From Gemmatimonadaceae bacterium (GTDB taxonomy: Bacteria > Gemmatimonadota > Gemmatimonadetes > Gemmatimonadales > Gemmatimonadaceae), in NCBI GenBank assembly GCA_020852815.1, contig JADZAN010000046.1, forward strand, positions 62,001 to 126,000: a stretch of 64,000 bases of DNA. The letters run 5' to 3'. The position numbers and the translations under genes are program-made. Positions within the stretch are counted from its first letter, which is position 1. Each line of letters starts with the position of its first letter. Below are positions 15,744-38,908 of the stretch, one piece after another. Under the pieces are notes generated by a model. It ran no database searches. It had not been told where the DNA came from and saw only the letters and a program-made list of their open reading frames with translations.

Positions 15744-16001
15744 TCAGGCGTCCTCGCCAGCTGCACCGTTGGCGCCTGCGGACCCGCGTTGCCGGTTGGC
15801 GACCACGCGGAAGATCGCGCCAGCGAAGACGGGGGCATTCGACTCGAGCGGGAGCCCGCGCGAATCGGTCACCAGCCGCTCGCCGGCAACGATCGCCTCG
15901 GCGAGCGCGGCGTCGACCAGGCGCACCGCATCGACCGGGGTTCCATTGGCCGGGGCATCGACGCCGCGGCCATTCACGTACACGCGCACCGTGGCGCTCA
16001 T
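15744..16001 (-). CDS. conserved-looking 85-residue protein in the purine-salvage operon
   Basis: I do not recognise this protein. It is 85 residues, starts MSATVRVYVNGRGVDAPANG, has no signal peptide or membrane helix, and alternates short hydrophobic strands and Gly/Pro turns (FAGAIFRVVANRQRG) before an Ala/Gly/Glu tail. A beta-grasp (ThiS/MoaD-like) fold is conceivable from the start, but there is no terminal Gly-Gly. Its ATG overlaps the 5'-nucleotidase stop by 4 nt and it ends 5 nt before add, so it is co-translated with purine-salvage enzymes. It could be a regulator or small-molecule-binding partner. Confidence 0.65.
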   Translation of the reverse strand: MSATVRVYVNGRGVDAPANGTPVDAVRLVDAALAEAIVAGERLVTDSRGLPLESNAPVFAGAIFRVVANRQRGSAGANGAAGEDA

Positions 16002-19000: not shown

Positions 19001-19291
19001 GCGCGTCAGGCCGCGCAGTGTGTCGGCGGCATCGGCGTAGTAGTCCCACCCGCGCAGGCGCCCGTGGACGTCGGTGGTGGCGGCGACGATGATGACTGTC
19101 GAGTCGCCGGCCTTGGCGGTTGGGGCGGCGGCGGATGCCGAAGCTGACGCGGGGCGCGCCGTGGACGAGGCACAGCCACACAGCGCGACCGCCGCCAGCG
19201 CGGCGAGCAGGGAAAGGCGGGGGGCGACAATCGCTCGGCGGCGCCCTTCCCGACGCACGACGCGCGGGAGGGCCATAACGGGGTGACGCAT
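15998..19291 (-). CDS. two-module 5'-nucleotidase / 2',3'-cyclic phosphodiesterase lipoprotein (YfkN-like)
   Basis: A 1097-residue lipoprotein (signal then lipobox LCGC near 40) holding two complete calcineurin-type nucleotidase units. Unit 1 (about 65-600) has TTDVHGRL, DAGDLLQG, GNHEFNYG, GHSHKEV and a C-terminal part resembling CpdB (NNYRQTGGGGY). Unit 2 (about 645-1090) has TNDFHGAF, DGGDEFQG, GNHEFDWG, SGHTHSG and a UshA-like C-terminal domain. Bacillus YfkN has the same cyclic-phosphodiesterase plus nucleotidase layout. It probably dephosphorylates external nucleotides so that add and pnp can process the nucleosides. Metal ligands look intact in both units. An in-frame ATG at 19276 is an alternative start. 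Confidence 0.9.
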   Translation of the reverse strand: MRHPVMALPRVVRREGRRRAIVAPRLSLLAALAAVALCGCASSTARPASASASAAAPTAKAGDSTVIIVAATTDVHGRLRGWDYYADAADTLRGLTRSATIVDSVRKARPGHVVLVDAGDLLQGNPLTYVAARIDTAAPHPVIAAMNAMQYDAAALGNHEFNYGLPTLDKAVAQATFPFLSANTFRTNGQRAYPASTVVQRGGVRIGIVGATTPGVLVWDRDNVAGRLQLKDIVTEVGREVQAVRRRSDAVVVVVHSGLGEPASYDTVSTGLPSENVGARIAREVPGVHLIVIGHSHKEVADTAINGVTIVQARNWATSVALATMTLTHDGAAWTVARTRGQIVRDAGHAEHPAVLAVTQRAHEQTVRWVNQTLGTTPVPWRADSARVRDTPLIDFILETQRQAAGTDLASTAAFDIGASLDAGPVTVAEVARLYPYDNTLRAVRITGKQLREYLEYSSRYYRTAGTPEAAQSPTDPTVPGYNFDIVAGADYTIDISRPIGSRVTRLQVKGRDVADTDSFTLALNNYRQTGGGGYAMLRDAPLIYDKQEEIRDLLIAEVRRRGTLRPDDFAVRNWALEPSGAADAAYRGMHASAFDASGTTRRPSAAANRLTSGRWLRVIATNDFHGAFEARADNNGVLRGGAPWFIGAIEQARRECQAPTCASLWLDGGDEFQGTPASNITYGASVVSLFARHGLVASALGNHEFDWGVDSLKARMRQAPYAILGANVTDSAGRDVPWIRNDTLVDVQGVRVGVIGVATVETPTTTKATNVVGLRFTNPARVVDERARALRARGAHVVVVIAHAGAFCDRRSLDGCNGEIVDLANAVTEKIDAIVSGHTHSGVATRVKGIPIVQAYSRGSAVGVIDIPLSSAEAPPVIVRNVWRDSVAADRPSAAYTDSVLARANAIYDKPVAEIAERMNAGASGTLGNLIADAFRTVGKGDVGLMNSGGVRAPLYAGWVTLGKLFEVEPFGNSLMRVHVLGRDLRRLLEEIVDTSNVRMHLSGVKVTYDPARPAGQRVTSLTFSDGRPVNARQLYTLVTLDFILMGGDGLSLAKRAAKVVDLRMSDLDALAQYLRTRPQPVRAPSDARLIPLSKP

Positions 19292-19553: not shown

Positions 19554-20240
19554 GTGAAGCCGCTCATCATCGGCATCGCGGGAGGGACGGGGTCGGGGAA
19601 GTCGACGGTGGCGCGGCGCGTCGCGGAGCAGTTGTCCCACGCGTCGGTGGCCTTCATCGACATGGATGCGTACTACCGCAACTTCGTGCACCTGCCGATC
19701 GAGGAACGGCGCCAGGTCAACTGGGACCATCCCGATGCCTTCGACCTCGACCTGCTGGTGGAGCAGCTGCAACAGCTGGTGTCGGGGACGGGGATCGAGA
19801 AACCGATCTACGACTTCGTGACGCATACGAGACGTGCGGAGACGCGACGGGTTCCCCCCGCCGACGTGATCGTGGTCGACGGAATCCTCCTGTTCGTGGA
19901 TGAACGGGTGCGCGATCTCTGCGACGTGAAGGTCTTCGTCGACGCCGAGGCCGACATTCGCCTCGCGCGCCGCATCAAGCGCGACATGGCCAAGCGGGGG
20001 CGCCCGCTGGAGGACATCCTGCAGCAATACATGACGACCGTGCGCCCCATGCACGAGCAGTTCGTGGAACCCAGCAAGCGCTACGCGGACGTGATCGTCC
20101 CGCGCGGCGGCCACAACGCCGTGGCCATCGAGATGATCACGGCCAAGATCCAACGCCGCTTCGACGCGGCTGGCGCTGAGTCGCGCGACAGCGTTCGCGA
20201 CAGCGTCCGCGAAGGCGCGCGCGAAGGCGCGCGGGCATGA
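19554..20240 (+). CDS. udk: uridine kinase
   Basis: The 228-residue enzyme phosphorylates uridine/cytidine using ATP or GTP. It shows P-loop GIAGGTGSGKSTVARRV at 7-23, DMDAYYRNF, NWDHPDAFD, IYDFVTHTR, and the lid segment IRLARRIKRDMAKRGR. The start is GTG (19554), giving the family N-terminus KPLIIGIAGG. The last 20 residues (SRDSVRDSVREGAREGARA) come from 9- to 12-nt DNA repeats and are not part of the enzyme fold. The ATGA overlap couples it to phoB, an unexpected partner. The 262-nt upstream gap (19292-19553) shows no clear promoter or gene. Confidence 0.93.
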   Translation: MKPLIIGIAGGTGSGKSTVARRVAEQLSHASVAFIDMDAYYRNFVHLPIEERRQVNWDHPDAFDLDLLVEQLQQLVSGTGIEKPIYDFVTHTRRAETRRVPPADVIVVDGILLFVDERVRDLCDVKVFVDAEADIRLARRIKRDMAKRGRPLEDILQQYMTTVRPMHEQFVEPSKRYADVIVPRGGHNAVAIEMITAKIQRRFDAAGAESRDSVRDSVREGAREGARA

Positions 20241-20959
20241 CGGCGCGCCCGGCCGCAGGGAGCGAGCGCGTGCTCGTCGTCGACGACGAACCGGATATCG
20301 TCGCCCTCGTCGCCTATCACCTGGTGAAGGCAGGCTACCGCGTCTCCACCGCCGCCTCGGGCCCCGACGCGGTGGCCGAGGCGCGACGGGAGCGCCCCGC
20401 CCTGGTCGTCCTCGACCTCATGCTCCCCGGGATGTCGGGCTTCGAGGTTCTGGAGCAGCTCCGCGCCGATGAGGTCACGCGCGACGTGGCGGTCCTCATG
20501 CTCACGGCGCGCAAGGACGAACCGGATCGCATCAAGGGGCTGTCGTTAGGTGCGGACGACTACCTCACCAAGCCATTCTCGCCGCAGGAACTCATCCTGC
20601 GCGTGGGTGCCATCCTGCGCCGGCTGCAGGCGGGGCAACAGCCGCCGGGGGAGACGCTGCGCGTGGGTCCCATCGCGATCGACCGCGCCGCGCACCGCGT
20701 GCACGTGGACGGGCGCGAGATCGAGCTCACGCCGACCGAATACAAGCTCCTCCTCACGCTGGCCGAGCGTCGCGGGCGCGTGCAGGCCCGCGCGCACCTG
20801 CTGGAAACGGTGTGGGACGCGGCCCCCGACATCCAGACGCGCACCGTGGACATGCACGTGCAGCGCCTTCGCACCAAGTTGGAGTCGGCCGGCGAGTTGA
20901 TCGAGACCGTGCGGGGATTCGGCTATCGCCTCAAGGCGGCCCAACCACGCAGTGCGTGA
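20237..20959 (+). CDS. phoB: OmpR/PhoB-type response regulator
   Basis: The 240-residue regulator has a receiver domain with acidic pair D16/D17, phosphoacceptor D60 (VVLDLMLPGMSG), T90 and K112 (LTKPF). A winged-helix DNA-binding domain follows (IELTPTEYKLLLTLAERRG...TVDMHVQRLRTKL...VRGFGYRL). It overlaps udk (ATGA) and phoR (GTGA). Given pst, phoU, ppx and ppk downstream, it is very likely PhoB, activating phosphate-starvation genes through the 11-nt-period sites at 22726, 28327, 37810 and 39591. That link is inferred from position and motif. Confidence 0.92.
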   Translation: MTARPAAGSERVLVVDDEPDIVALVAYHLVKAGYRVSTAASGPDAVAEARRERPALVVLDLMLPGMSGFEVLEQLRADEVTRDVAVLMLTARKDEPDRIKGLSLGADDYLTKPFSPQELILRVGAILRRLQAGQQPPGETLRVGPIAIDRAAHRVHVDGREIELTPTEYKLLLTLAERRGRVQARAHLLETVWDAAPDIQTRTVDMHVQRLRTKLESAGELIETVRGFGYRLKAAQPRSA

Positions 20960-22710
20960 GGCTCTCCCGTCGGCTGCTCGCCGGTTCGCTCCTGCTCATC
21001 GGCGTGCTCGTGCTGCTGGTGGTGGTGGCGCTCGACTGGCGGCTGGGGCTCAGGCTGCACGACGAGACCGAGGCGGAACTGTGGCGTGAGGCGAGATTCA
21101 TCGCCGCCGCGTGGCACCCCGGCGTCGACGCCGACTCGCTCGCCAACGCCGCCGGCGAGGCGCTGGGACATCGCGTCACGCTCATCGACTCGTCAGGCAA
21201 GGTCATCGGCGATTCCGAGTTCGACGCGCCGGCGCTGGGGCGGCTCGAGAACCATCGCACGCGCCCCGAAGTCATCCAGGCGCTGCAGGCGGGGCAGGGA
21301 TCGTCGGTGCGTCGTTCCCCGTCCGCTGGCGACGAGGAGCTGTATGCGGCGCTGCGCACGCCGTTTGGCGTAGCGCGCGTCTCCATCTCCACGTCGTTGC
21401 AGACGGCGATCGTCCGCCGGGTGCAAGGCGACGTCCTCTCCGTCGCCATCGTCGCCACGCTGGTGGCGCTCCTGCTCGCCGTCCTCTTCGCGCGCTCGGT
21501 CACGCGCCCCATCCTTGAGCTGCGCGACGACGCGCAGGCCATTGCCGGCGGCGACCTCGCGCGCCGCCCCTCGCTCGTTGCGCCTGGCGAAGTGGGCGAG
21601 CTGGCCTCGGCGTTCCATCGCCTGGCCGAGCAGCTCTCGGCGCGCGTGGCCGCACTCGAGGCCGACGACGCGTTGCTGCGCGCCCTCACCGAGGCACTCA
21701 ACGAAGGAATAGTCGCCCTCGACGGACGGCAGCAGGTGCAGCACATGAATGCCGGCGCGCGCCGCCTGCTGGGGGCGCGCGATCCGCTCCCCTTCCCCGC
21801 CGACCGCCTCCCCCGCGATCGCGTGTTGCGCGAGGCACTCGCCGCGGCCTTCGCCGGCTTCGCCACCGACGCAATCGAGACCACGCTCAACGACCGCGCC
21901 GTCACGCTCACCGCCCGAGCGCTGGATGGTGGAGGCGCCGTCCTCGCGCTGCTCGATGTCACCACCATACGCCGCCTCGAGAAGGTGCGCCGCGACTTCG
22001 TTGCCAACGTCTCGCACGAACTGCGCACCCCGCTCACGGTGGTGAACGGCTTCGCCGAGACGCTGCAGGACCCCTCGCTGACCCCGGAGGATCGCACGCG
22101 CTTCAGCGCCACCATCCTCTCCAACACAAACCGGATGCAGCGCATCGTCGACGACCTTCTCGACCTGTCGCGCATCGAGTCCGGCGGGTGGCGCCCAGCG
22201 CCCGACGACGTGGACATCCGCGCCGTCGCGCAAGAGACCTTTGCCGGCGCGCGCGCCATTGCCGACCGCAAGCGCGTTGCCCTGCAATCGGAGATTGGCG
22301 ACGACCTCCACGTCGTGCACGCCGACCCCACCGCGCTGCGTCAGGTCCTTGGAAACCTCGTGGACAACGCGCTGCGCCACACCACTGCCGGCCACGTGAC
22401 CATCGCCGCCATTCGCGAGGACAACGGTGTGCGCCTCACGGTGCGCGACACCGGATCAGGAATCCCGGCCGAGCACCTCCCGCGCATCTTCGAGCGCTTC
22501 TACCGCGTCGATGCCGCCCGCTCGCGTCAGGAAGGGGGGACGGGGCTCGGCCTGGCGATCGTGAAGCACATGGTCGAGGCGCACGGCGGACGTGTCACGG
22601 CGGAGAGCACCGCCGGGGTGGGGACGAGCGTCAGCGCCTGGTTCCCCGACCGTGCGCGACCATACGCCGGCGACACGGCGACCGGGGCGAGCGGGGCGGG
22701 CGACACCTAA
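20956..22710 (+). CDS. phoR: phosphate-regulon sensor histidine kinase PhoR
   Basis: The 584-residue kinase starts at a GTG overlapping the phoB stop. It has a first membrane helix (LLAGSLLLIGVLVLLVVVAL), a periplasmic sensor region (about 30-150), a second helix and HAMP (RSVTRPILELRDDA). A PAS-like region and HisKA with phosphoacceptor H354 (FVANVSHELRTPLTV) follow. The ATPase domain shows NLVDNALRH, DTGSGIP, FYRVD and GGTGLGLAIVKHM. PhoR in well-studied species senses Pst/PhoU state; this one also has a sizeable extracytoplasmic domain, which is more like Gram-positive or cyanobacterial sensors. It ends 124 nt before the TonB receptor. Confidence 0.92.
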   Translation: MRLSRRLLAGSLLLIGVLVLLVVVALDWRLGLRLHDETEAELWREARFIAAAWHPGVDADSLANAAGEALGHRVTLIDSSGKVIGDSEFDAPALGRLENHRTRPEVIQALQAGQGSSVRRSPSAGDEELYAALRTPFGVARVSISTSLQTAIVRRVQGDVLSVAIVATLVALLLAVLFARSVTRPILELRDDAQAIAGGDLARRPSLVAPGEVGELASAFHRLAEQLSARVAALEADDALLRALTEALNEGIVALDGRQQVQHMNAGARRLLGARDPLPFPADRLPRDRVLREALAAAFAGFATDAIETTLNDRAVTLTARALDGGGAVLALLDVTTIRRLEKVRRDFVANVSHELRTPLTVVNGFAETLQDPSLTPEDRTRFSATILSNTNRMQRIVDDLLDLSRIESGGWRPAPDDVDIRAVAQETFAGARAIADRKRVALQSEIGDDLHVVHADPTALRQVLGNLVDNALRHTTAGHVTIAAIREDNGVRLTVRDTGSGIPAEHLPRIFERFYRVDAARSRQEGGTGLGLAIVKHMVEAHGGRVTAESTAGVGTSVSAWFPDRARPYAGDTATGASGAGDT

Positions 22711-22725: not shown

Positions 22726-22742
22726 GTGACGGCTCTGTTGCA
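22726..22742 (-). promoter_or_regulatory. candidate Pho box before the TonB receptor
   Basis: On the minus strand the site reads TGCAACAGAGCCGTCAC: two half-sites TGCAAC and CGTCAC with an 11-nt period. It matches the pstS site TGTAACGGCGCCGTCAC at 13 of 17 positions. It lies 15 nt after the phoR stop and 93 nt before the receptor ATG. PhoB boxes in other bacteria are direct repeats with the same 11-nt period. Confidence 0.55.
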
Positions 22743-22834
22743 CTGCCGTCGCCAAGCCGTGTCGAAGGATGAGCAATGTAACGGAGCGCCGCGCGCCAGC
22801 CGCGCCGCGCAGCTCCCTTACGTGCGAGACACAC

Positions 22835-25654
22835 ATGCCCCGTCGCATCCTCGACTCCCTCGCGCGAGCGCGCCATGTCGCGCTCGCGCTGGCGGGATCG
22901 GTCTGCCTCCTGAACGGTATCGGCGCACCGCGCCCCCTGCACGCCCAGTCGACAGCGCCTGCCGGACGCATTGTCGGGCGCGTGATCGACGTCGCCAGCG
23001 GCCTCGGACTCTCCGACGTCGGCATCCAGGTGGTCGGCACCACGTTAGGCGCCATGTCGGGCGTGGACGGCCGCTACACGATCGCCAGCATCCCGGCCGG
23101 CACGGTCACCCTCCAGTTCCGCCGCATTGGCTACACGCCGAAAACAGTCACCGGCATCATGCTGGGCGCCGACAGGACACTGGCGCAGGACGTGACGCTT
23201 TCGACGGCGGCCATCACCCTCGCCGCCCAGACGGTCACCGCCAGCGCCGAGCGTGGCTCGGTGGCCGACGCGCTCGACGCGCAGCGCACCGCCACCGGCA
23301 TCGTCAACGCCATCACCGCCGAGCAGATCGCGAAGAGCCCGGACTCCGACGCCGCGCAGGCCGTGCAGCGCGTGAGCGGCGTGACGGTGCAGGACGGACG
23401 CTACGTCTTCGTGCGCGGACTGGGCGAGCGCTACACCGTGACGCAGCTCAACGGCGCGCGCATGCCAAGCCCCGAGCCCGAACGCCGCGTCGTCCCGCTC
23501 GATCTCTTCCCTACCGGCATGCTGCAGTCGGTGACGACGGCCAAGACCTTCACTCCCGACCAGCAGGGAGACTTCTCCGGGGCGCAGGTCGACATCAGGA
23601 CGCGCGAGTTTCCGGCGCGCCGCACCTTCACCTGGCAGAGCAGCGCGGGGTACAACGGCGGCGTCACCGGACAGTCGATCCTGGGGAGCGTGAATGCCGG
23701 CGGCGAACCGTTTGCCATGGGACGCTCCAACCGCGCGCTGCCGGCGCTGGTGCGCTCGGCGGGCAACTTCCAGCACATCGAGCTGACGCAGGGCGACAAG
23801 AACCGTCTGGTGGGAACCTTTCGCGACGCCTGGACGCCGGGGCAGCGCAACGCCCTCCCCAACGGCTCGATGGCGATGTCGGTCGGCGGCAATGATCCGA
23901 TCCTCGCTCAGCGCATCGGCTACCTCCTCTCAGGAACGTACAGCTACTCGGAGGAGCTGCGCACCGGCCAGCGCCGCGCCCTTGCCCAGCGCGGCTCGAC
24001 GCCAGGCACCACCAACGAGATCGATCGCTTCGAGGGATCGACGGCCAACCAGGGGACGCTGTGGGGTGGGCTGCTCAACCTCAGCACGCTGCTGGGAGGG
24101 GCGACGCGCGTCTCGCTCAACAACACCTACAATCGCACCAGCGATAACGACGCGCGCGTCGAGCGCGGATCGTTCGAGAACGAAGGGATCGCGGCGCGCA
24201 TCGATCGCATGCAGTACGTGGAGCGCTCGGTGCGCTCGTCGCAGCTCGCCGTCGAGCACCAGCTCGGCGAGCGGCACCGCATCGACTGGCAGGTCACGAC
24301 GTCGGGCGTGCGCCGCGACGAACCCGACCGTTCGGAGTTTGTCTCGGAGATCGTGAACCCCGGCGCCGCCAACGAGCAACAGTTGTGGCTGTCGACCGGC
24401 AACGGCGGCGCGGTGCGCACCTTCTCCACCCTCACCGAGGACGCCAACGAGGGGCGGGCGAACTACCTCCTTACCTTCAGCGGCTTCGGGCGTCCGCAGA
24501 TGCTCAAGGTCGGCGGGCTGTGGCGCGGCACCGATCGCGACGCCGACTCACGTTCGTACTCCATCAGCGCGCCACGCATATCGCTGGCCGACCGCGCGCT
24601 CCCCGCCTCGCAGCTCTTCGACGGGCGCTTCACCACCCCGACCTCATCGGTCTTCGAAATCGCCCCGCTGTCGCAGGGCGGCGCGTATTCGGCGAGCGAC
24701 CGCCTAACGGCCGGCTACCTCATGGCCGACCTCGCCCTCTCCGACCGCCTGCGCCTCATCACCGGCGCCCGCTACGAGCGCGACGACCTCACCGTCAACG
24801 CGCAGTCGACGTTAGGCCAGCCGGTGGTGACGCAGAAGCTGTGGAACGACCTCCTCCCCTCGGCGGCGCTCAACGTCAAGCTGGGCGAGTACCAGTCCGT
24901 ACGCGTTTCAGTGTCGCGTACGCTGGCGCGCCCCGAGTACCGCGAACTCTCGCCCATCAAGAGCCGCGACGTCCTCAACGGCGACGACCTCGAGGGGAAC
25001 CCGAACCTCGTGCGCACGCGCATCGACAACGCCGACATCCGCTGGGAGTGGTACCCCGACGCCGCGGAGATCGTGAGCGTGTCGCTCTTCGCCAAGGCGT
25101 TCTCCGACCCCATCGAGCGCGTGTACAAGAGCGCCGGCGCGCAACGCTTCCTGGCCTACGTGAACGCCGAGCGGGCGACTAACTACGGCGTGGAGTTCGA
25201 GCTGCGGAAGGGGCTCGGGATGTTCGCGCAGGCGCTGCGAGCGCTGACGGCCTTCACCAACCTCACCGTGATGTCCTCGACGATCACGCTCGGCGACTCC
25301 GCACGCCAGGCGTCGACCAACCCGTCGCGCGCCATGGTGGGACAGGCGCCGTACGTGCTGAACGCGGGGCTCACCTACGCGAGCGCGAACGGTGCCACGA
25401 GCGCCACGCTCCTCTTCAACCGCGTGGGCGATCGCATCGATGCCGCGGGCGACCAGCCGCTGCCTGACGTGAAGGAACTCGCGCGCAATGTCCTCGACCT
25501 CTCGCTGCGATTCCCGCTTGCCGGTGCGCTCAGCGCCAGGTTCGACGCCCGCAACCTGCTCGACGCCCCCTACCAGACCGTGCAGGGGACGGTCGTGCGC
25601 GAGTACTGGCGCACCGGACGCACCATCCAGCTCGGCTTCCAGTTCCGACCCTGA
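22835..25654 (+). CDS. TonB-dependent outer-membrane receptor, probably phosphate-starvation induced
   Basis: The 939-residue product has a signal peptide and an N-terminal carboxypeptidase-regulatory-like domain (GRIVGRVIDVASGLGLSDV to about 125). The plug follows (SDAAQAVQRVSGVTVQDG, VFVRGLGERYTVTQLNGARM, PLDLFPTGMLQSV), then a 22-strand-type barrel ending RTIQLGFQFRP. Such receptors import large or scarce ligands using TonB energy. The ligand is unknown. Its place between phoR and pstS and the Pho-box-like site 93 nt upstream suggest a phosphorus-containing substrate. The ATG at 22835 gives a normal signal peptide; an in-frame ATG at 22769 would bury it. It is followed after 25 nt by a surface lipoprotein. 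Confidence 0.9.
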   Translation: MPRRILDSLARARHVALALAGSVCLLNGIGAPRPLHAQSTAPAGRIVGRVIDVASGLGLSDVGIQVVGTTLGAMSGVDGRYTIASIPAGTVTLQFRRIGYTPKTVTGIMLGADRTLAQDVTLSTAAITLAAQTVTASAERGSVADALDAQRTATGIVNAITAEQIAKSPDSDAAQAVQRVSGVTVQDGRYVFVRGLGERYTVTQLNGARMPSPEPERRVVPLDLFPTGMLQSVTTAKTFTPDQQGDFSGAQVDIRTREFPARRTFTWQSSAGYNGGVTGQSILGSVNAGGEPFAMGRSNRALPALVRSAGNFQHIELTQGDKNRLVGTFRDAWTPGQRNALPNGSMAMSVGGNDPILAQRIGYLLSGTYSYSEELRTGQRRALAQRGSTPGTTNEIDRFEGSTANQGTLWGGLLNLSTLLGGATRVSLNNTYNRTSDNDARVERGSFENEGIAARIDRMQYVERSVRSSQLAVEHQLGERHRIDWQVTTSGVRRDEPDRSEFVSEIVNPGAANEQQLWLSTGNGGAVRTFSTLTEDANEGRANYLLTFSGFGRPQMLKVGGLWRGTDRDADSRSYSISAPRISLADRALPASQLFDGRFTTPTSSVFEIAPLSQGGAYSASDRLTAGYLMADLALSDRLRLITGARYERDDLTVNAQSTLGQPVVTQKLWNDLLPSAALNVKLGEYQSVRVSVSRTLARPEYRELSPIKSRDVLNGDDLEGNPNLVRTRIDNADIRWEWYPDAAEIVSVSLFAKAFSDPIERVYKSAGAQRFLAYVNAERATNYGVEFELRKGLGMFAQALRALTAFTNLTVMSSTITLGDSARQASTNPSRAMVGQAPYVLNAGLTYASANGATSATLLFNRVGDRIDAAGDQPLPDVKELARNVLDLSLRFPLAGALSARFDARNLLDAPYQTVQGTVVREYWRTGRTIQLGFQFRP

Positions 25655-25679
25655 CAACTCCAGCCCTTCAGGACTCCGC

Positions 25680-27431
25680 ATGATACCGTTCTCCCAGCAG
25701 CTCCTCCGCAGCGCCGTGGCAACCGGCGTGTTGTGCACGCTCGCCGCCTGTGGCGACAGCGACAGTCCCGGCGCGCCGGACCGTCCGTCGCCACCACTGG
25801 GCCTCTCCGCAACCGCGCTCTCGTCGTCGAGCATTCGCGTCTCCTTCAACAGTGCGGCTGGCGACAACAGCTACGTCGTCGAGCGCGCCGAGGGGGCCGG
25901 CACCTTCGCGATGGCCGGTTCAGTCACCGCCCCCGCCACCGCGGGCGCCGTCACCTTCGCCGACGCCAACCTCAAGCGCGAAACGCTCTATCGCTATCGC
26001 GTGAAGGCGCAGCGCGGCACGCAGGAAAGCGACTACACGAACGAAACAGCAGCCACCACGCTCGCCTTCGGCAGCGCCGCCAAGGACATCACCGCCGACA
26101 TCACGAGCAACACGACCTTCAACGCCGACACCGCGTACACGCTCAAGGGCTTCATCCACGTCACCAACGGCGCCACGCTCACCATCCAGCCGGGGACGAC
26201 GATCAAGGGCGACTACGCCACCCTCGGGTCGTCGCTCTTCGTCATGCGCGGCGCGAAAATCCAGGCGGTCGGCACCGTCGATGCGCCCATCGTCTTCACG
26301 TCGTCGCGCGGCGTTGGCCAGCGATCGCCCGGCGACTGGGGCGGGGTGATCATCATCGGCAACGCGCGCTCCTCCCGCGACGGCGATGTGGAGGTGGAAG
26401 GGAGCGGCACCGACGGGACAACGGTCGCCTCGGGGAAGAACTATCGCGTTCTCTACAGCGGCGGCACGAGCGATACCGACTCGAGCGGTGAGCTCAAGTA
26501 CGTGCGCGTCGAGTTCGCGGGCTTTGCGCCGTCGGTTAACAACGAGCTCAACTCGTTCACCTTCGCCGCCGTCGGCAGCGGGACCAGGCTCTCGTACCTC
26601 GAATCGCTCTCCGGCCTCGATGACTCCTTCGAGTTCTTTGGCGGTACCGTCGATGGTTCGTACCTCGTCTCCTACGAATCGGGCGACGATCACTTCGACA
26701 TGTCGGAGGGATACCGCGGCCGCCTGCAGTACCTCGTTGCCTACCAGAGCACCGTCCTCACGCCGCGCACCGGCGCCGGTTCGGTCTCGACCGATCCGCA
26801 GGGGATCGAGAACGACGGCTGCAACGGCACGGGATGCACCAACGGCTTCGACCAGGCCCCCTTCACCACGCCCGTGGTGGCCAACTACTCGCTCGTCGGC
26901 ACGGGCGACGCCTCCACCTCGGGGGCGAGCGGCGGCGTCGGCGTCATGCTGCGTCGCGGAACCGGCGGCTACTATGTGAACGGGGTGCTGGCCCGCTGGC
27001 CGCGCAGCGCGATCGCCGTGCGAGACGCCGAGACGTACAAGCGCGCCGGCAACGCGCCGATTCCCGACATCGCCACCAGCGACCTGGCAGTGCGCAACAT
27101 CCTCATCGCCTCGTCAGGCACCACGTTCGAGACGGGATCGGCACGATACGCCTTCGACATCGCCGGCAACGCCATCACGGTGAACCCCACGCTCGCCATC
27201 ACCGACCTCTTCACCGCGATCCCCGACGTCGCCTCGCCCAACACCACGGCCGCCAGCTTCGACTGGACGCCTAAGGCGGGGAGCGCTGCCGCGGCCGGTG
27301 GTCTCGCCGCCTTCACCGGCAAACTGGCCACGGCCGCCGGGGCGGCCGTCACGGGCACACCCTACCTCGGCGCTGCCGCACCGGGAGGGAGCAAGTGGTG
27401 GCAGGGGTGGACATACTACGCGCGCCAGTAG
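25680..27431 (+). CDS. beta-helix lipoprotein paired with the TonB receptor
   Basis: The 583-residue lipoprotein (lipobox LCTLAAC, Cys near 24) has a fibronectin-type-III-like region (about 35-125: GLSATALSSSSIRVSFNSAA ... YRYRVKAQ). A long right-handed beta-helix-like part follows, with repeating GATLTIQPGTTIKGDY, APIVFTSSR and GDWGGVIIIGNA. It closes with an aromatic end (KWWQGWTYYARQ). I cannot assign a catalytic activity. Being 25 nt after the receptor gene, it is probably its surface partner, perhaps capturing substrate as SusD does for SusC. That role is inference; no SusD similarity is visible. Confidence 0.8.
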   Translation: MIPFSQQLLRSAVATGVLCTLAACGDSDSPGAPDRPSPPLGLSATALSSSSIRVSFNSAAGDNSYVVERAEGAGTFAMAGSVTAPATAGAVTFADANLKRETLYRYRVKAQRGTQESDYTNETAATTLAFGSAAKDITADITSNTTFNADTAYTLKGFIHVTNGATLTIQPGTTIKGDYATLGSSLFVMRGAKIQAVGTVDAPIVFTSSRGVGQRSPGDWGGVIIIGNARSSRDGDVEVEGSGTDGTTVASGKNYRVLYSGGTSDTDSSGELKYVRVEFAGFAPSVNNELNSFTFAAVGSGTRLSYLESLSGLDDSFEFFGGTVDGSYLVSYESGDDHFDMSEGYRGRLQYLVAYQSTVLTPRTGAGSVSTDPQGIENDGCNGTGCTNGFDQAPFTTPVVANYSLVGTGDASTSGASGGVGVMLRRGTGGYYVNGVLARWPRSAIAVRDAETYKRAGNAPIPDIATSDLAVRNILIASSGTTFETGSARYAFDIAGNAITVNPTLAITDLFTAIPDVASPNTTAASFDWTPKAGSAAAAGGLAAFTGKLATAAGAAVTGTPYLGAAAPGGSKWWQGWTYYARQ

Positions 27432-27513
27432 GCGCCGCACCGTCCGCTCCACGTTGCGCGGAACCGACCAGCGTCATGGGCCGGTCCCGCGCCTCACTCC
27501 ACGAAGCCCGAGT

Positions 27514-28272
27514 GTGCGCCCACTCACCTTGTCCCGAAGGACACGTACTCTGTCGCTCGCGGGCAGCGTCCTGATCGCCGGACTCGCCGCCTGCGGGGAA
27601 GGCGGCGCGGCGCCTTCGCGTGTATCTGGCGCGCCGACGCGCGACACCGTGGTGCTACAGCTGCAACCGCCCGACTCCGTACACCGTGCGCGCGCGGACT
27701 CGCTGGCATCGCTGCATCGAGATTCCGTCGCCCGTGCACTCGCCGACTCGATGCATCGCGCCACACCGGGCTACGTCGTCGACTCGGCGCGTTCGCCATT
27801 GGCGCAGTTGCAACGCTTCCGCGCCTCCCTTCCCACGGTGCGCAACCTGGCCGGCGGCGCGCCATCGCGTGATTCGCTGGTGGCACTCGTCATCGCCGCC
27901 GTCACGCGGCACGACGCGCACGCATTGGCCGCGCTCGCCGTGTCGCGCGCCGAGTACGCCTGGCTCGTCTATCCCGAACTCCCGATCGCGCGCGCTCCCT
28001 ACAATCACCCGCCCGACGCCGCGTGGATGCTCCTGGCCGCCGAGAGCCGCGCCGGTCGCTCGCGGCTGCTGGAGCGCTTTCGCGCGACGCCGCTCGTGGC
28101 GCGCGCCCTCGCCTGCGACGAGCGCGAGACGTACGGCAGCCTGACGCTCTGGCCTAACTGTCGCGTGACGGTGCCGGGGCGCGACGGGGAGGCACGGGCG
28201 CAGCGCCTGTTTGGCGCGGTGGTCGCGGTCAACGGCCGCTTCAAGCTGCTCTCGTTCGGCAACGACTTCTGA
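27514..28272 (+). CDS. uncharacterised lipoprotein upstream of pstS
   Basis: I do not recognise this protein. About 252 residues from the GTG at 27514, with a hydrophobic signal and lipobox (IAGLAAC). An Asp/Ser/Arg-rich helical linker of repeated DSxHRARADSLASLHRDS style follows, then a compact domain from about residue 125 (VALVIAAVTRHDAHALAALAVSR ... ERETYGSLTLWPNCRV ... FKLLSFGNDF). Cysteines in ACDERE and PNCRV may pair. The start is uncertain (TTG at 27529 is also possible). It lies between the beta-helix protein and the pstS regulatory palindrome. Confidence 0.65.
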   Translation: MRPLTLSRRTRTLSLAGSVLIAGLAACGEGGAAPSRVSGAPTRDTVVLQLQPPDSVHRARADSLASLHRDSVARALADSMHRATPGYVVDSARSPLAQLQRFRASLPTVRNLAGGAPSRDSLVALVIAAVTRHDAHALAALAVSRAEYAWLVYPELPIARAPYNHPPDAAWMLLAAESRAGRSRLLERFRATPLVARALACDERETYGSLTLWPNCRVTVPGRDGEARAQRLFGAVVAVNGRFKLLSFGNDF

Positions 28273-28326
28273 CAGCGCTCGCGACCGGGCGCTCGGGCTC
28301 TCGTCCGCCCCCTCGCTCGCCGCGTT

Positions 28327-28373
28327 TGTAACGGCGCGGTCACAGCCGCATGAGGTGTGACGGCGCCGTTACA
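28327..28373. promoter_or_regulatory. 47-bp palindrome with two Pho-box-like sites before pstS
   Basis: Arm 1, TGTAACGGCGCGGTCACA (28327-28344), and arm 2, TGTGACGGCGCCGTTACA (28356-28373), are inverted copies matching at 17 of 18 positions, separated by 11 nt. Each arm alone is a direct-repeat pair (TGTAAC and [GC]GTCAC, 11-nt period), so two boxes face each other. The palindrome ends 71 nt before the pstS start. The next strongest feature downstream is the GGAG ribosome-binding site at 28433. It is the best candidate PhoB operator in the window. Confidence 0.7.
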
Positions 28374-28444
28374 CATTCGCCGCTCAGTTGCATCGAGGGG
28401 CGTGCGATCTTCCCGTCACTACTCGACTTACTGGAGATCGTCAC

Positions 28445-29524
28445 GTGCACGCACGCGCCCTGACCGCGCTCGCCATTGCAACAATCGCCGCCTGCGGTGG
28501 CGGTGACCCGAGATCCGGTGACACGGCGGCCGCCAGCGCCGCCGCCTCGTCATCCGTCGACCTCAACGGCGCCGGCGCCACCTTCCCGTATCCGATCTAC
28601 TCCAAGTGGTTCTCGGACTACGCAACCGCAACGGGCGTCAAGATCAACTACCAGTCGATTGGCTCCGGCGGCGGCATCAAGCAGCTCTCCGAGCAGACGG
28701 TCGACTTCGGCGCCACCGACGGCCCCATGTCGGATGCAGAGCTGGCCAACGCAAAGGGGGGCATGGTCCTGCACTTCCCCACCGTCCTCGGCGCCGACGT
28801 GGTGACCTACAACCTCCCCGAGGTCACGACCCCATTGCGCCTGACGGGCGCCCTCGTGGCCGACATCTTCCTCGGCAAGATCACGCGGTGGAACGACCCG
28901 CGCATCGCCGCCGAGAATGCCGGCGCCGCGCTCCCCGCCAAGGACATCCTCGTCGTGCATCGCTCCGATGGCAGCGGGACCACCTACATCTTCACCGACT
29001 ACCTCACCACGGTGAGCAAGGCGTGGGGCGCGGGCCCCGGGAAGGGGAAGTCGGTGCAGTGGCCGGTTGGGCTGGGCGGCAAGGGGAACGAGGGGGTCGC
29101 CGGCGCCGTGAAGCAGACACCGGGCGCCATTGGCTACGTCGAGTTGGCCTACGCCAACCAGAACAAGCTCCCCAGCGCGCTGATCCAGAACGCCGCCGGG
29201 ACATTCGTACCTCCAACGATCGCCAGCATCACCGCCGCCGCCGAGGGCGCGGTCGCCGGCCTCGCCTCCGACTCCGACTATCGTGTCTCCATCGTGAACG
29301 CGCCGGGTGCCGGGGCGTATCCGATTGCCTCGTTCACCTGGCTCCTCGTGTACGAGCAGCAGGGCGACGCGGCCAAGCGCGAGAAGCTCGTCGACTTCAT
29401 GAAGTGGATGTACGACTCGGGGCAGCAGAGCGCCTCGGCGCTCGACTATGCCCCGCTCCCCAAGGCGCTCGCGACGCAGCTCACGGCGCGCCTCGACCGC
29501 GTGAAGGCGGGCGCGCCCCGGTGA
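28445..29524 (+). CDS. pstS: phosphate ABC transporter substrate-binding lipoprotein PstS
   Basis: PstS captures inorganic phosphate and passes it to PstC/PstA. The 359-residue product starts at a GTG 9 nt after GGAG, has a lipobox (TIAAC) and the family segments DLNGAGATFPYPIYSKWF, YQSIGSGGGIKQL and DFGATDGPMSDAEL. The phosphate-binding loop VHRSDGSGTTYIF and GAIGYVELAYA follow. The lipobox predicts an outer- or inner-membrane-attached form rather than a free periplasmic protein. The stop overlaps pstC as GTGA. A strong palindromic operator lies upstream. Confidence 0.96.
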   Translation: MHARALTALAIATIAACGGGDPRSGDTAAASAAASSSVDLNGAGATFPYPIYSKWFSDYATATGVKINYQSIGSGGGIKQLSEQTVDFGATDGPMSDAELANAKGGMVLHFPTVLGADVVTYNLPEVTTPLRLTGALVADIFLGKITRWNDPRIAAENAGAALPAKDILVVHRSDGSGTTYIFTDYLTTVSKAWGAGPGKGKSVQWPVGLGGKGNEGVAGAVKQTPGAIGYVELAYANQNKLPSALIQNAAGTFVPPTIASITAAAEGAVAGLASDSDYRVSIVNAPGAGAYPIASFTWLLVYEQQGDAAKREKLVDFMKWMYDSGQQSASALDYAPLPKALATQLTARLDRVKAGAPR

Positions 29525-30522
29525 CGTCGCCGTCGCAGCTCCCCGCGCTGGGGGCGGCGGCGCCGCCGGTGCCATCGCCCATTTTGGGTGCAGGGGGGGC
29601 GCTGGTGGGCTCGACACCCGGCGACCGGATCTATCGCCTGGTGACGACGGCGTTCGCGTGGGCCGTCCCGCTACTGCTGGGACTCATCGCGCTCGAGGTC
29701 GTCGTGGCCGCGTGGCCGGCGTTTCGCACCTTTGGCCTCGACTTCCTCACGTCGAGCCAGTGGGACGAGGTGCGGGGCAACTTCGGCGCCGCCCCGATGA
29801 TCTACGGCACCGTCGTCTCCTCGGTGCTCGCCCTCGCGCTGGCCACCCCGCTGGCGTTAGGCGTGGCGGTCTTCCTGAGCGAGTTCGCGCCGACGTGGCT
29901 GCGCCAGCCGGTCGCCTTCCTCGTCGATCTCCTGGCCGCCATTCCATCGGTTGTCTACGGGTTGTGGGGGATCTTCGTCCTCCTCCCCGTGCTGCGCGAG
30001 CAGGTCATGCCCTTCCTCGCCGACACGCTCGGGCTCCGGCACACCCCGTTCTTCAGCGGAGCGGCGTACGGTCCGTCGATGCTGGCCGCCGCGGTGATCC
30101 TGGGGATCATGGTCCTCCCCTACATCTCGGCGGTGTCGCGCGAGGTCCTGATGGCCGTGCCGCGCTCGCAGCGCGAGGCCGCGCTCGCCCTCGGCGCCAC
30201 CAAGTGGGAGATGATCCGGGATGCCGTGGTCCCCTACGCGCGCTCGGGGATCGTTGGCGGGATCATCCTCGGGCTGGGGCGCGCGTTAGGCGAGACGATG
30301 GCGGTCACGATGCTCATCGGCAACCGGCACGAGATCTCCTCGTCGCTCTTCGCGCCCGGCTACACGCTGGCCTCGGTCATCGCCAACGAGTTCGCCGAGG
30401 CAACGAGTGCGCTGCACACGTCCACACTGATGGCGTGCGGCGCCGTGCTGCTGGCGGTGACGCTGGTGGTGAACGTGGTGGCACGCTGGCTGGTATGGCG
30501 CGTGTCGCGGGAGGGGCGATGA
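29521..30522 (+). CDS. pstC: phosphate ABC transporter permease PstC
   Basis: The 333-residue inner-membrane permease begins at a GTG overlapping pstS. After a Pro/Ala-rich cytoplasmic start it shows six membrane helices, FLSEFAPTWLRQPVAFLVDLLAAIPSVVYGLWG, and the coupling motif [21 protein letters not shown] that contacts the ATPase. GLGRALGETMAVTMLIGN completes the family pattern. It pairs with PstA and ends in an ATGA overlap with it. Confidence 0.95.
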   Translation: MTSPSQLPALGAAAPPVPSPILGAGGALVGSTPGDRIYRLVTTAFAWAVPLLLGLIALEVVVAAWPAFRTFGLDFLTSSQWDEVRGNFGAAPMIYGTVVSSVLALALATPLALGVAVFLSEFAPTWLRQPVAFLVDLLAAIPSVVYGLWGIFVLLPVLREQVMPFLADTLGLRHTPFFSGAAYGPSMLAAAVILGIMVLPYISAVSREVLMAVPRSQREAALALGATKWEMIRDAVVPYARSGIVGGIILGLGRALGETMAVTMLIGNRHEISSSLFAPGYTLASVIANEFAEATSALHTSTLMACGAVLLAVTLVVNVVARWLVWRVSREGR

Positions 30523-31440
30523 ACGTGAACGCGGCCGCGCCGTCGCCGTCTCCCGCGCGCCGCCCCAGCGGTGTGCAGCGCGCGGCGATGCAGCGCACCG
30601 CCCGCTCGCTGGGGCTGCGGCGCGCCACGAACGCCGTCATGCTCGGCGTGATGAACGTTGCGGCCCTCGTCGCCGTCCTCCCGCTCGTCTTCATCCTCTG
30701 GCACCTGGCGCGCGAGGGGGCCTCGTCGCTCTCGGCCGACTTCTTCACCAGGATGCCCAAGCCGGTGGGGGAAGCCGGGGGCGGGATGGCCAACGCCATC
30801 GCCGGGACGCTCGTCCTGCTGGGCATTGCGTCGCTCATCGGCCTCCCGGTCGGGGTCGGCGCGGGATTGTACCTGGCGGAGCAGCGCACCACCCGCCTTG
30901 CCGTCGCCGTGCGCTTCCTGGCCGACGTCCTCAACGGGCTCCCGTCGATCGTGATGGGGATCTTTGCCTGGCAGTTCCTCGTGCGGCCGGTGGGGCACTT
31001 CTCGGCCGCCGCGGGGGGGATCGCGTTAGGCGCGATGATGATCCCGCTCGTCACGCGCACCACCGAGGAGATGATCCGCCTCGTTCCCGTGTCGCTGCGC
31101 GAGGCGGCGCTGGCGTTGGGTTACACCCGGTGGCGGACATCGTTGGCCATCGTGCTCCGCACCGCCCTTCCCGGGATCGTGACCGGCGCGCTCGTTGCGG
31201 TCGCGCGCATTGCGGGTGAGACGGCGCCACTCCTCTTCACCGCCTTCGGCAACCAGTTCTGGTCACTCGCGCTCGACCAGCCGGTTTCGGCGCTCCCGCT
31301 CCAGATCTTCGCGTACGCCATCAGCCCGTACGACGAGTGGCACCGCCTGGCCTGGGCCGGCGCACTCGTCCTCATCGCGCTCGTGCTCGTCATATCGCTT
31401 CTCTCGCGCCTCGTCACCCGTTCACGATTCGGAGGGAGTG

Positions 31441-31448
<8 letters not shown>
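30519..31448 (+). CDS. pstA: phosphate ABC transporter permease PstA
   Basis: The 309-residue permease overlaps pstC by 4 nt. It has a basic, Pro-rich N-terminus of about 35 residues and six helices. [32 protein letters not shown] and the coupling loop [30 protein letters not shown] are present, as is [20 protein letters not shown]. It forms the channel with PstC, powered by a PstB dimer. The last codons overlap the start of pstB1. Confidence 0.95.
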
Positions 31449-32321
<873 letters not shown>

Positions 32322-32325
<4 letters not shown>

Positions 32326-33086
32326 CCGTCGCAACCGGCGTCATCGAGGCGCGCGACTACTCGTTCTGGTACGGCGAGACGCAGGCGTTGCACGACATCA
32401 CCCTCACGATGCCGGCGCGTTCGGTGACGGCGCTCATCGGCCCCTCCGGCTGTGGAAAGTCGACCTTCCTGCGCTCCATCAACCGGATGAACGCCCTCAT
32501 TCCCGGCGCACGGCACTCGGGGGAACTCCTCCTCGACGGTGACTCGTTGCACGCGCGCACGATGGACGTGGTGGAGCTGCGCCAGCGCGTGGGAATGGTC
32601 TTCCAGCGCTGGAACCCGTTCCCCAAGTCGATCTACGACAACGTGGCGTACGGCCCGCGCATCAACGGCACGTCGTCGCGCGCCGAGCTGGATGAGATCG
32701 TGGAGGCGTCGTTGCAGCGCGCGGCGCTGTGGGACGAGGTCAAGGAACGCCTCAAGCAGAGCGCGTTAGGCCTGTCCGGGGGACAGCAACAACGCCTCTG
32801 CATCGCGCGCGCCCTCGCCAACCAACCCGAGGTCCTCCTCCTCGACGAACCCTGCTCCGCCCTCGACCCCATCGCCACGCAGAAGGTCGAGGCGCTCCTC
32901 TACGAGCTCAAGGCCGACCTCACCATCGTCATCGTCACGCACAACTTGCAGCAGGCGGCGCGCGTCGCCGACCAGACCGCCTTCTTCTACCTCGGACGCC
33001 TTGTCGAGGTGGACGCGACCGAGCGCCTCTTCACGAGCCCGCGCGAGGAGCGCACCGAGGCCTACATCACCGGGAGGTTCGGGTGA
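32322..33086 (+). CDS. pstB: phosphate ABC transporter ATPase PstB (second copy)
   Basis: The 254-residue ATPase has Walker [20 protein letters not shown]-loop [20 protein letters not shown], signature [19 protein letters not shown] and Walker [14 protein letters not shown]. It is of standard PstB length and more canonical than the first copy. Both copies end AYITGRFG, and the overlap of each with the next gene is ATGA or GTGA. Two intact pstB genes in one pst operon could form homo- or heterodimers. Confidence 0.93.
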
Positions 33087-33796
33087 GCCCAGCGACCGAG
33101 TCCATCGGCTTTCGCCACTTCCACGATCAGTTGGCCATGCTCAAGCAGCGCCTGCTGGACATGTCGGCGCGCGCCGAGGAGCTCGTCGACCTCGCCGTGG
33201 ACGCTCTGCTCACGCGCGACAAGGAAACGGCCGACGCGGTCATCCTCGGCGATCGCGAAATCGACGTCCTCGAGATAGAGGTCGAGTCGCTCGCCGTCGA
33301 GCTGCTCGCCACGCAACAGCCCATGGCGCGCGACCTGCGCTTCATCATCAGCGCCATCAAGGTCTCGAGCGACCTGGAACGCGTGGGCGACCACGCGGTC
33401 AACATCGCGCAGTCGGCGCTGCGCCTCATCGCGCTCCGCGGCACGATCACCCCCGATCCCGAGATCGAGGACATGGCGCGCCGCGCGCGTCGCATGCTCT
33501 CCGATGCGCTCGACGCTTTCATTCGCGCCGATGGCACGCTGGGGCGCGAGGTGTGCAGGGCCGACGACGCCGTCGATGCGCTGCACGACTCGCTCTTCCG
33601 CATCCTCCTCACGCACATGATGGCCGATGCGCGCACGATCAATCCGTCGCTCGAACTCCTCCTCGTAAGCCGGAACCTGGAGCGCGTCGCCGACCTCGCC
33701 ACCAACATCGGCGAGGACGCGGTCTATCTGGCGGAGGGGAAGCAGATCAAGCATCGTTTCGAGGTCGACGAGCGCTCGGCGGCCGACACCGCGTAG
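33083..33796 (+). CDS. phoU: phosphate transport regulator PhoU
   Basis: The 237-residue protein has the two three-helix bundle repeats of PhoU, each with a metal-site motif: [21 protein letters not shown] and [22 protein letters not shown]. PhoU links Pst transporter activity to PhoR and keeps the regulon off when phosphate is plentiful. The GTG start overlaps the second pstB by 4 nt, and the gene ends 28 nt before ppx. Confidence 0.95.
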
Positions 33797-33824: not shown

Positions 33825-35465
33825 ATGGCCTCTCCCGTTCGACCGCGCGTCATTCCGCTGCGCGCCAGCGCCCCACGCCCCGAGCACGGGACGCGGCTCG
33901 CCGCCATCGACATCGGCTCCAACTCCATCCGGCAGATCATCGCCGATGTCTCGCTCGAAGGGCGCATCCGCGTCCTCGACGAGATGAAGGCCGCGCCGCG
34001 CTTGGGGACCGGTCTCGATCGCACCGGGCACCTCGACGAGGATGCCATGCAGCACGCGCTCGAGGTGCTGCAACGAATGGCCACGCTCGCCGCGCAATAC
34101 GCCCCGGCCAAGGTCGAGGCGGTGGCCACGAGCGCGGTGCGCGACGCCACCAACGGAAAGCAGTTCGTCGATCTCGTCAGGCGGCACACGGGGCTCCGCG
34201 TTCGCGTCCTCCACGGCGAGGACGAGGCACGGCTCGCCTTTCGCTCCGCCGTGGCCCACTTCGACCTCGCCCGCGGTCGTTCCGTGGTGATGGACATCGG
34301 CGGCGGATCGTTGGAGTTGGCCATGAGCGCCGACGGCGTGCTGGACCGACTCGTCTCGCTCCCCTACGGTGCCATCCGGATGACGGAACAGTTCCTCGGC
34401 CTGACGCCGCGCCGCAAGGATGTCCGCGCGCTCCGCGCGCACGTGCGCGACGCCATCCGCAAGGCGCTCCCGCTGCGCGACTGGCGCGGCTCGCAACTCA
34501 TCTGCTCTGGCGGGACCTTCACCAACCTGGCCGGGATCTATCTCTATCGGCAGGGAACGACGAGCGCCGCCGGGCGCGTGCAGGGAACGCGCGTCCCGCG
34601 CGAGGAGCTCGAGCACATCATCGACCTGGTGCACGAATGCTCCCCCGACGAGCGCGCGCACATTCGCGGGCTCAACGTGGGACGGTCGGACATCATCCTT
34701 GCCGGCCTCGTCGTCGCCTCCGAAGTGATGGCGCGCACCGAGTCGCGCGACCTGGTGGTCTCGGCGTACGGAATCCGCGAGGGGCTCCTGCTGGAGTGCG
34801 CCGACGTGACGCCGCTCCCCGCCGACCCTGGCGAGGCGCGCGGGCGCTCGGTGCGCACGCTGGCCGAGCGTTGTCACTACGAGGCCCCGCACGCCCAGCA
34901 CGTGCAACGCCTCGCGTTGCAGCTGTTCGACGCGGTGGGGGCACGCATCGGCTGCACCGCCGACGACCGCCAGGCGCTCGCCGACGCCGCGCTGCTGCAC
35001 GACATCGGCTACCACATCAACTACGACCAGCATCACAAGCACTCGTACCACCTCATCCTGCACGCCGACCTGCTGGGGATGTCGCCGGTGGAGCAGGTGA
35101 TCGTGGCCAACGTGGCGCGCTACCATCGCGGTGCCCCCCCCAGGCGCAAGCACCAGAACTTCGGGCGGCTCGATCGCGCCTCGCGCGAGCGCATCGTGCG
35201 CCTGGCCGCGCTGCTCCGCATCGCTGACGGCTTCGACCGCGGACACGTGGGCGGCGTGCAGCGCGTGAAGGTGCGCTGGACCGATCGCGCCATTCGCATC
35301 ACCGCCGTCCCCGACCCGCGCGCCCGCGTGCTGCGCCTCGAACTGTGGGGGGCGTCGCGCAAAGCGGCGCTGCTCGAGTCGCTGGTGGGAGTGCCGGTGG
35401 AGATCGTTGCCCCCGACGGGACCGTGGTCGAGGGGCGCGACGACGAGGACGGCGACGGCGAGTAG
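33825..35465 (+). CDS. ppx: exopolyphosphatase / GppA family with C-terminal HD-like domain
   Basis: Ppx removes terminal phosphate from polyphosphate and GppA converts pppGpp to ppGpp. The 546-residue protein has the ASKHA fold: IDIGSNSIRQIIADVS near 28, SAVRDATNG, VLHGEDEARLAF, VVMDIGGGSLEL and ICSGGTFTNLAG. A C-terminal HD-type helical domain follows (HDIGYHINYDQHHKHSYHLI, RYHRGAPPRRKH). It ends 16 nt from the stop of convergent ppk. Which of the two reactions dominates cannot be told from sequence. Confidence 0.92.
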   Translation: MASPVRPRVIPLRASAPRPEHGTRLAAIDIGSNSIRQIIADVSLEGRIRVLDEMKAAPRLGTGLDRTGHLDEDAMQHALEVLQRMATLAAQYAPAKVEAVATSAVRDATNGKQFVDLVRRHTGLRVRVLHGEDEARLAFRSAVAHFDLARGRSVVMDIGGGSLELAMSADGVLDRLVSLPYGAIRMTEQFLGLTPRRKDVRALRAHVRDAIRKALPLRDWRGSQLICSGGTFTNLAGIYLYRQGTTSAAGRVQGTRVPREELEHIIDLVHECSPDERAHIRGLNVGRSDIILAGLVVASEVMARTESRDLVVSAYGIREGLLLECADVTPLPADPGEARGRSVRTLAERCHYEAPHAQHVQRLALQLFDAVGARIGCTADDRQALADAALLHDIGYHINYDQHHKHSYHLILHADLLGMSPVEQVIVANVARYHRGAPPRRKHQNFGRLDRASRERIVRLAALLRIADGFDRGHVGGVQRVKVRWTDRAIRITAVPDPRARVLRLELWGASRKAALLESLVGVPVEIVAPDGTVVEGRDDEDGDGE

Positions 35466-37701: not shown

Positions 37702-37738
37702 GGAGGCGGCGCGGGGAGTGAGGTGCGGGCGATCGCGT

Positions 37739-37762
37739 CGGGCATGGTGATGACCATGCCCG
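37739..37762. promoter_or_regulatory. perfect hairpin in the ppk leader
   Basis: CGGGCATGGT-gatg-ACCATGCCCG is a perfect 10-bp inverted repeat with a 4-nt loop, 37 nt upstream of the ppk start and 108 nt beyond the pit stop. It could be an RNA hairpin in the ppk leader, a protein-binding palindrome, or the terminator of pit (no T-tract on the minus strand). Confidence 0.5.
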
Positions 37763-37809
37763 CGCACGCCTCGTCACGGAAGGCTCGTCTCCCAAGCTAA
37801 CGCCGGAAT

Positions 37810-37826
37810 GGTCACCGGCGTGTCAC
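37810..37826 (+). promoter_or_regulatory. candidate Pho box between pit and ppk
   Basis: GGTCACCGGCGTGTCAC contains half-sites GGTCAC and TGTCAC with an 11-nt period. The second half-site is the classical TGTCA core. It is oriented opposite to ppk and lies 109 nt upstream of its start. It is the least similar of the candidate sites to the pstS pair (10 of 17 to arm 1). Confidence 0.45.
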
Positions 37827-38905: not shown

Positions 38906-38908
38906 GGC

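Follow-up and report, generated by a model that had tools for sequence, protein, structure and literature searches.

A TonB-dependent receptor, a beta-helix lipoprotein and a third lipoprotein in the pho-pst cluster of a Gemmatimonadaceae bacterium: a putative Pho-controlled outer-membrane module of the ElpS/CC0171 and FII/Tbdt kind

The closest described systems combine a phosphate-starvation lipoprotein with a TonB receptor. In Caulobacter crescentus, the available part of the published account gives an elpS (CC0170)-cc0171-gsp layout in which CC0171 is a TonB receptor and gsp denotes the type II secretion genes, and ElpS is a phosphate-starvation lipoprotein induced at low inorganic phosphate (Pi) (PMC2996285); TonB receptors are also listed within the Caulobacter PhoB regulon in the accessible text of PMC11208175. 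The PUSIV locus of Flavobacterium johnsoniae comprises phoR, phoB, the receptor Tbdt (Fjoh_0545) and the lipoprotein FII (Fjoh_0546), the last two being strongly induced by Pi depletion, and FI, FII and FIII are reported as ElpS homologues with 31-36% identity over 50-54% (PMC8115612, likewise available in part). Here we analyse a 64,000-nt stretch (the window) of the 5.38 Mb draft genome of a Gemmatimonadaceae bacterium, in which a TonB-dependent receptor (TBDT), a beta-helix lipoprotein (BHL) and a small third lipoprotein (LP3) are encoded in the order phoB, phoR, TBDT, BHL, LP3, pstS, pstC, pstA, two copies of pstB, phoU and ppx, as read from open reading frames (ORFs) and protein families. 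We conclude that the trio is very likely a Pho-controlled outer-membrane module, judging from sequence comparisons, and probably one of the ElpS/CC0171 and FII/Tbdt kind that imports a phosphorus compound. Conservation, linkage, co-evolution, a promoter motif and predicted folds support the module.

The receptor-lipoprotein pair belongs to a little-studied kind already on record in Caulobacter and Flavobacterium; what is new here is LP3, the placement inside a pst cluster and the promoter evidence from two phyla. It resembles ElpS-CC0171 as a pairing of a lipoprotein gene with a TonB receptor gene and in the link of the lipoprotein to phosphate starvation, and the window BHL and TBDT match pairs in Sphingomonas and Indioceanicola that share the gsp-adjacent alphaproteobacterial layout. 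In contrast to ElpS-CC0171, the receptor gene comes first, the pair lies within a pho-pst cluster, a third lipoprotein is added, and no type II secretion genes were noticed beside the window pair. PUSIV shares phoBR neighbours and a TBDT with a lipoprotein, FII being a low-Pi-induced member of the pectate-lyase-type superfamily IPR011050, but the plant-associated Bacteroidetes are said to be without PstSABC, and pf07705 is given for the further lipoprotein of PUSIV, Fjoh_0549 (from the same partial text, PMC8115612); LP3 matched nothing in Pfam. SusCD/PusCD systems of Bacteroidota also couple a TBDT carrying an N-terminal CarboxypepD_reg domain to a surface lipoprotein gene, but the window lipoprotein is a beta-helix rather than SusD, and the receptor was rejected as a SusC/RagA protein, scoring 30.3 bits against TIGR04056 with its cut-off of 368. 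A preliminary description of this DNA had not recognised the trio; the pair has in fact been published (PMC2996285, PMC8115612, each available in part), whereas the third gene seems unrecorded, no publication on LP3 or on the trio in Gemmatimonadota having been found in the limited collection of literature searched.

All three ORFs were found in the ORF list of the window between phoR and pstS, where the preliminary description had placed three envelope genes, with 25 nt between the TBDT stop and the BHL start, as it had also noted. Their families and arrangement are kept in other genomes, and the arrangement is therefore far beyond chance. The BHL core (E<1e-20) is present in 119 of 298 Gemmatimonadota genomes, the TBDT subfamily (E<=1e-80) in 123 and both in 118 (tables counted by reading). 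We drew 100 BHL loci from 98 of the 118 genomes other than the window's own, two genomes giving two loci each; the 20 BHL-bearing genomes left out mostly had the match on a short contig or ranked low. A TBDT lies within 5 kb and on the same strand at 97 of the 100 loci, and pho/pst markers lie within about 9 kb at 83; these markers include pstC, pstA, pstB and phoU, named from translations read by eye. With identical thresholds, such markers were found near none of 20 other TBDTs of the window genome. LP3 accompanies BHL at 93/100 loci by hidden Markov model (HMM) and at 86/100 by tblastn, and its HMM matched none of the loci from other phyla (0/69 and 0/8), such that LP3 seems special to Gemmatimonadota. 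The trio may precede pstS, follow phoU, stand ahead of a lone pstS-like gene with ppx, or lie beside phoB; such varied positions argue that the trio itself is kept together, beyond any frozen gene order. Clustering of neighbours by longest ORF produced many antisense artefacts in this GC-rich DNA and served as a pointer, the genes then being checked.

Co-evolution was assessed with the 53 of the 100 loci that have all five of BHL, TBDT, LP3, PhoB and PhoR. The BHL and TBDT distance matrices correlate at 0.94, or at 0.87 as a partial correlation given PhoB and PhoR, a value reached by none of 999 permutations, and LP3 gives partial correlations of 0.76-0.80 with BHL and with TBDT. PhoB and PhoR distances correlate at 0.92, and the partial correlation of the trio with PhoR given PhoB is near zero. 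The trio appears from these distances to behave as one inherited unit, partly apart from phoBR.

The preliminary description had also pointed to a Pho-box-like site at the receptor, and this site is borne out by a motif trained on 93 TBDT upstream regions of other loci, with the window, its own genus and loci L046 and L047 left out. Only three sites in the 64 kb score above 13 bits (Table 1): a tandem site on the minus strand roughly 92 bp ahead of the TBDT start, and two sites with the same motif upstream of pstS. Twenty shuffled 64-kb windows yielded a top score of 16.9. The position weight matrix was seeded with the tandem form, so the tandem shape is partly assumed; a count of spacing is free of this seed, with its half-site, TG[TC]NAC, picked after the enriched 6-mers were known. 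Such half-sites 11 bp apart occur as 26 pairs upstream of the 96 TBDTs with usable upstream regions (95 of the 100 loci plus the window) compared with 0.05 in shuffles, and 26/96 TBDT upstream regions carry a pair compared with 70/2513 upstream regions of control ORFs from the same stretches. A genome-wide search with a Pho-box pattern was too loose, giving 19 sites against 18 for the reversed pattern. Two more high-scoring sites were seen in the same genome, near position 1500 of L265 (20.7 bits) and 1501 of L267 (17.6 bits), beside genes not obviously tied to phosphate.

Relatives of BHL occur in Bacteroidota and Proteobacteria, and a TBDT was matched in 63 of 69 BHL loci from other groups. 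The pair adjoins gsp genes in Indioceanicola and Sphingomonas, the BHLs of these loci matching that of the window at E 1.9e-49 and 4.2e-37 respectively, and in Alteromonas its neighbours are phoB-phoR, a pstS-like gene and TonB/ExbBD genes. Neither a Caulobacter locus nor one labelled F. johnsoniae is among the 80 loci kept from the contig scan. The window TBDT, with an N-terminal CarboxypepD_reg domain like that of SusC, a plug and a barrel, reaches 258.4 bits against TIGR01782 (TonB-Xanth-Caul receptors), below the curated cut-off of 310. Against the TBDTs that are paired with BHL in other phyla it gives E 1e-58 to 1e-89, and against the eight best-scoring other TBDTs of its own genome 1e-10 at best; by these scores, its closest kin are the BHL-paired receptors of other phyla rather than the other receptors of its own genome.

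Upstream of these non-Gemmatimonadota receptors, TGTTA repeats at 11 or 22 bp are found in 24 of 52 usable regions (from the 69 loci, mainly Bacteroidota) compared with 12 of 915 control ORFs, the repeat having been selected after six half-site patterns were tried; it is also present at 19 of the 42 loci that showed no pho gene close by. In L230 an 11-bp TGTTA repeat precedes pstS by about 160 bp, and in L195 another lies before a porin-pstSCAB-phoU cluster. We infer that the repeat may be the Bacteroidota Pho box. Frames that look porin-like by eye lie beside or within the pst clusters near these repeats (L195, 11907-12923; L230, 5412-6671).

BHL has an N-terminal lipobox, LAAC, identified by eye, and an fn3 domain that at 24.5 bits falls just short of the Pfam cut-off of 25; the rest of the protein matched no Pfam or NCBIfam family, enzyme families included, and phmmer searches of the PDB sequences with BHL and with TBDT gave weak partial matches at most. 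An AlphaFold2 model of the BHL core built from 41 sequences is a right-handed parallel beta-helix with a predicted local distance difference test score (pLDDT) of 90.3 and a predicted template-modelling score of 0.93, which backs the fold given in the preliminary description. The targets of the 50 listed fold matches (Z 18.6-23.0), which we take to be mostly beta-helix proteins, are spread over tailspikes, alginate epimerases, PL6, PL9, GH28 and NosD, and are tied within a few Z units; Foldseek E-values are weak. Since the matches are spread across many beta-helix families, the fold points to no single activity, and the fold search assigned no enzyme, unrelated families being tied and none standing out. 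Invariant acidic residues in the 41 sequences form two sets 22 residues apart, D185/D186/E189 and D207/D208/D211, followed by E248/D250, and adjoin the modelled strands 188-191, 210-213 and 247-250. In the model these acids would stack as a ladder along adjacent coils, with a possible part in metal binding or catalysis. Two BHL genes, in tandem or fused, were observed beside a single TBDT at loci L080, L117 and L134.

LP3 matched no Pfam or NCBIfam family. Its residues 112-247 are predicted to form helices followed by a curved antiparallel sheet, an NTF2/cystatin-like fold; the best fold match is the cystatin-like 4qan (Z 9.2), and the other listed matches are mostly NTF2/cystatin-like at Z 5.2-7.0. 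The best Foldseek E for LP3 is just 5.8e-3. At several loci (among them L058, L068, L074 and L088), LP3 and ppx flank the gene of a diverged PstS-like protein of about 39-47% identity with no adjoining pstCAB, a lone phosphate-binding protein linked with the trio; that of L088 matches PBP_like_2.

The module is best read as one that takes up a phosphorus compound, and the phosphate-linked outer-membrane system proposed in the preliminary description is upheld by synteny, co-evolution and promoter motif. We infer PhoB regulation, surface location, ligand and contact between BHL and TBDT. At low phosphate, phosphorylated PhoB would bind the tandem site upstream of TBDT and switch on TBDT, BHL and LP3 along with pst, a promoter logic drawn from motif and layout. 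BHL, a surface-exposed lipoprotein in this scheme, would bind or partly process a phosphorus-containing compound along its beta-helix groove and pass it to its partner TBDT, which would import it using TonB energy; periplasmic phosphatases and PstSCAB would then take up Pi, with the NTF2-like lipoprotein LP3 as a phylum-specific accessory.

Several observations weigh against this reading. A synteny survey, for which the preliminary description had named in advance a trio mostly away from pho genes as the adverse outcome, does not show it in Gemmatimonadota, where the trio is mostly near such genes; elsewhere, pho/pst markers lie near just 12 of the 69 BHL-TBDT loci, despite which the Pho-box-type repeat stands upstream of 24 of 52 receptors. 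Within Gemmatimonadota, 17 of the 100 loci have no pho/pst gene in the stretch, which in 6 cases is a short one of 10-14 kb, and just 13 of 31 pstS upstream regions of other loci exceed 12 bits. The likeness to ElpS and FII was judged from gene layout, published descriptions and the BHLs of elpS-type loci. According to the available text, ElpS is cleaved and released from cells, and cc0171 is reported, with data not shown there, to be expressed in rich and poor media by reverse-transcription PCR (PMC2996285); FI is the most abundant exoprotein of F. johnsoniae in the corresponding part of PMC8115612. A shed protein such as ElpS or FI would not be an obvious lid. The SusD-like capture role proposed for BHL in the preliminary description would be conjectural: BHL differs from SusD in sequence, and the relatives reported for it are exoproteins that cells release; SusD was rejected for both BHL and LP3, with neither PF07980 nor PF14322 among their Pfam matches up to E 1. 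SusD-like capture is possible as a mode of action, and a secreted enzyme or a shuttling binder would be the other live option.

We tentatively put forward that in at least three phyla a beta-helix lipoprotein, shed or at the surface, carries phosphorus compounds much as haemophores carry haem (hence 'phosphophore') and docks on a TonB receptor of its own, independently of SusD, with an NTF2-like lipoprotein added in Gemmatimonadota. A comparable, minority chance attaches to a mainly enzymatic BHL: an esterase, or a beta-helix that cuts polysaccharides, would be anchored at first and later shed, freeing phosphate or exposing a phosphorylated polymer, and TBDT would import the products without stable contact with it. 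Most fold matches are to carbohydrate lyases, hydrolases, epimerases and phage tailspikes, the invariant acids are aligned on neighbouring coils, and ElpS, besides being released, is associated when overproduced with higher alkaline phosphatase activity in supernatants (PMC2996285, from the part available), all of which suit an enzyme; however, Z scores tied across unrelated families and the lack of any Pfam or NCBIfam enzyme family do not, and the strong BHL-TBDT co-evolution fits contact or strict functional coupling. It is improbable that the module instead imports a metal, free or complexed, that phosphate-stressed cells need. Iron complexes are the classical cargo of TonB-dependent receptors, the acid ladder of BHL could bind metal, and a 2-oxoglutarate-Fe(II) oxygenase gene adjoins the pair in Alteromonas (L153), but pho/pst linkage and Pho-type promoter sites in two phyla argue against this, and the P-responsive loci of F. 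johnsoniae are described as tightly repressed under N and Fe limitation in the accessible text of PMC8115612. That unrelated envelope genes merely happen to sit in a pho-pst cluster has little support beyond the 17 loci away from pho/pst genes, and is refuted by TBDT adjacency, the control receptors and co-evolution, with the shared promoter motif also against it, which makes it extremely unlikely.

Features of the window are collected in Table 1.

Table 1. Coordinates of the phosphate-linked genes and Pho-box-like sites in the window
Feature	Position	Strand	Basis
phoB, response regulator	20237..20959	+	TIGR02154 PhoB 246.6 bits, E 1.8e-73; under equivalog cut-off 296
phoR, sensor kinase	20956..22710	+	TIGR02966 phoR_proteo 299 bits, E 3.1e-89; under cut-off 334
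Pho-box-like tandem site before TBDT	22726..22743	-	18.8 bits, trained motif
TonB-dependent receptor (TBDT), 939 aa	22835..25654	+	PF00593, PF07715 and PF13620 over cut-off
BHL, beta-helix lipoprotein with fn3 domain, ElpS/FII-like	25680..27431	+	Lipobox, fold model, relatives
LP3, small lipoprotein, NTF2/cystatin-like C-terminal domain	27529..28272	+	HMM distribution, fold
Pho-box-like site upstream of pstS	28326..28343	+	19.0 bits
Second Pho-box-like site upstream of pstS	28357..28374	-	18.7 bits
pstS, periplasmic phosphate-binding protein	28445..29524	+	TIGR00975 391 bits, cut-off 205
pstC, pstA, two pstB, phoU	29590..33796 (approximate outer limits)	+	ORFs; named from translations and order
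ppx, exopolyphosphatase	33825..35465	+	PF02541 and PF21447 over cut-off

The two consecutive pstB genes of the single pst operon (about 31.4-33.1 kb) are likewise present in many relatives. A gene at 15998-19291 on the minus strand, about 1 kb upstream of phoB, encodes a double-domain 5'-nucleotidase/metallophosphoesterase that seems to be a lipoprotein; a uridine kinase gene separates it from phoB. This nucleotidase is a candidate partner of the trio if nucleotides serve as phosphorus source. Beyond ppx, the phosphorus island continues with genes for polyphosphate kinase, a PHO4-type phosphate permease and a DUF47 PhoU-like protein (35482-39619, minus strand). The start listed for the DUF47 frame overlaps a lower-scoring Pho-box-like site at 39591 (12.5 bits); the true start may lie further in.

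How scarce or bulky phosphorus compounds pass the outer membrane of Gram-negative bacteria is poorly known beyond the phosphate porins. The module described here is widespread, with Pho-type promoter sites in two phyla even away from pho genes. Gemmatimonadota, which are common in soil, mostly hold it in one copy tied to pho/pst genes, and the question of its substrate is therefore directly testable there and in Flavobacterium or Caulobacter. If the phosphophore interpretation is true, the module would be a TonB-driven phosphorus uptake system independent of SusD.

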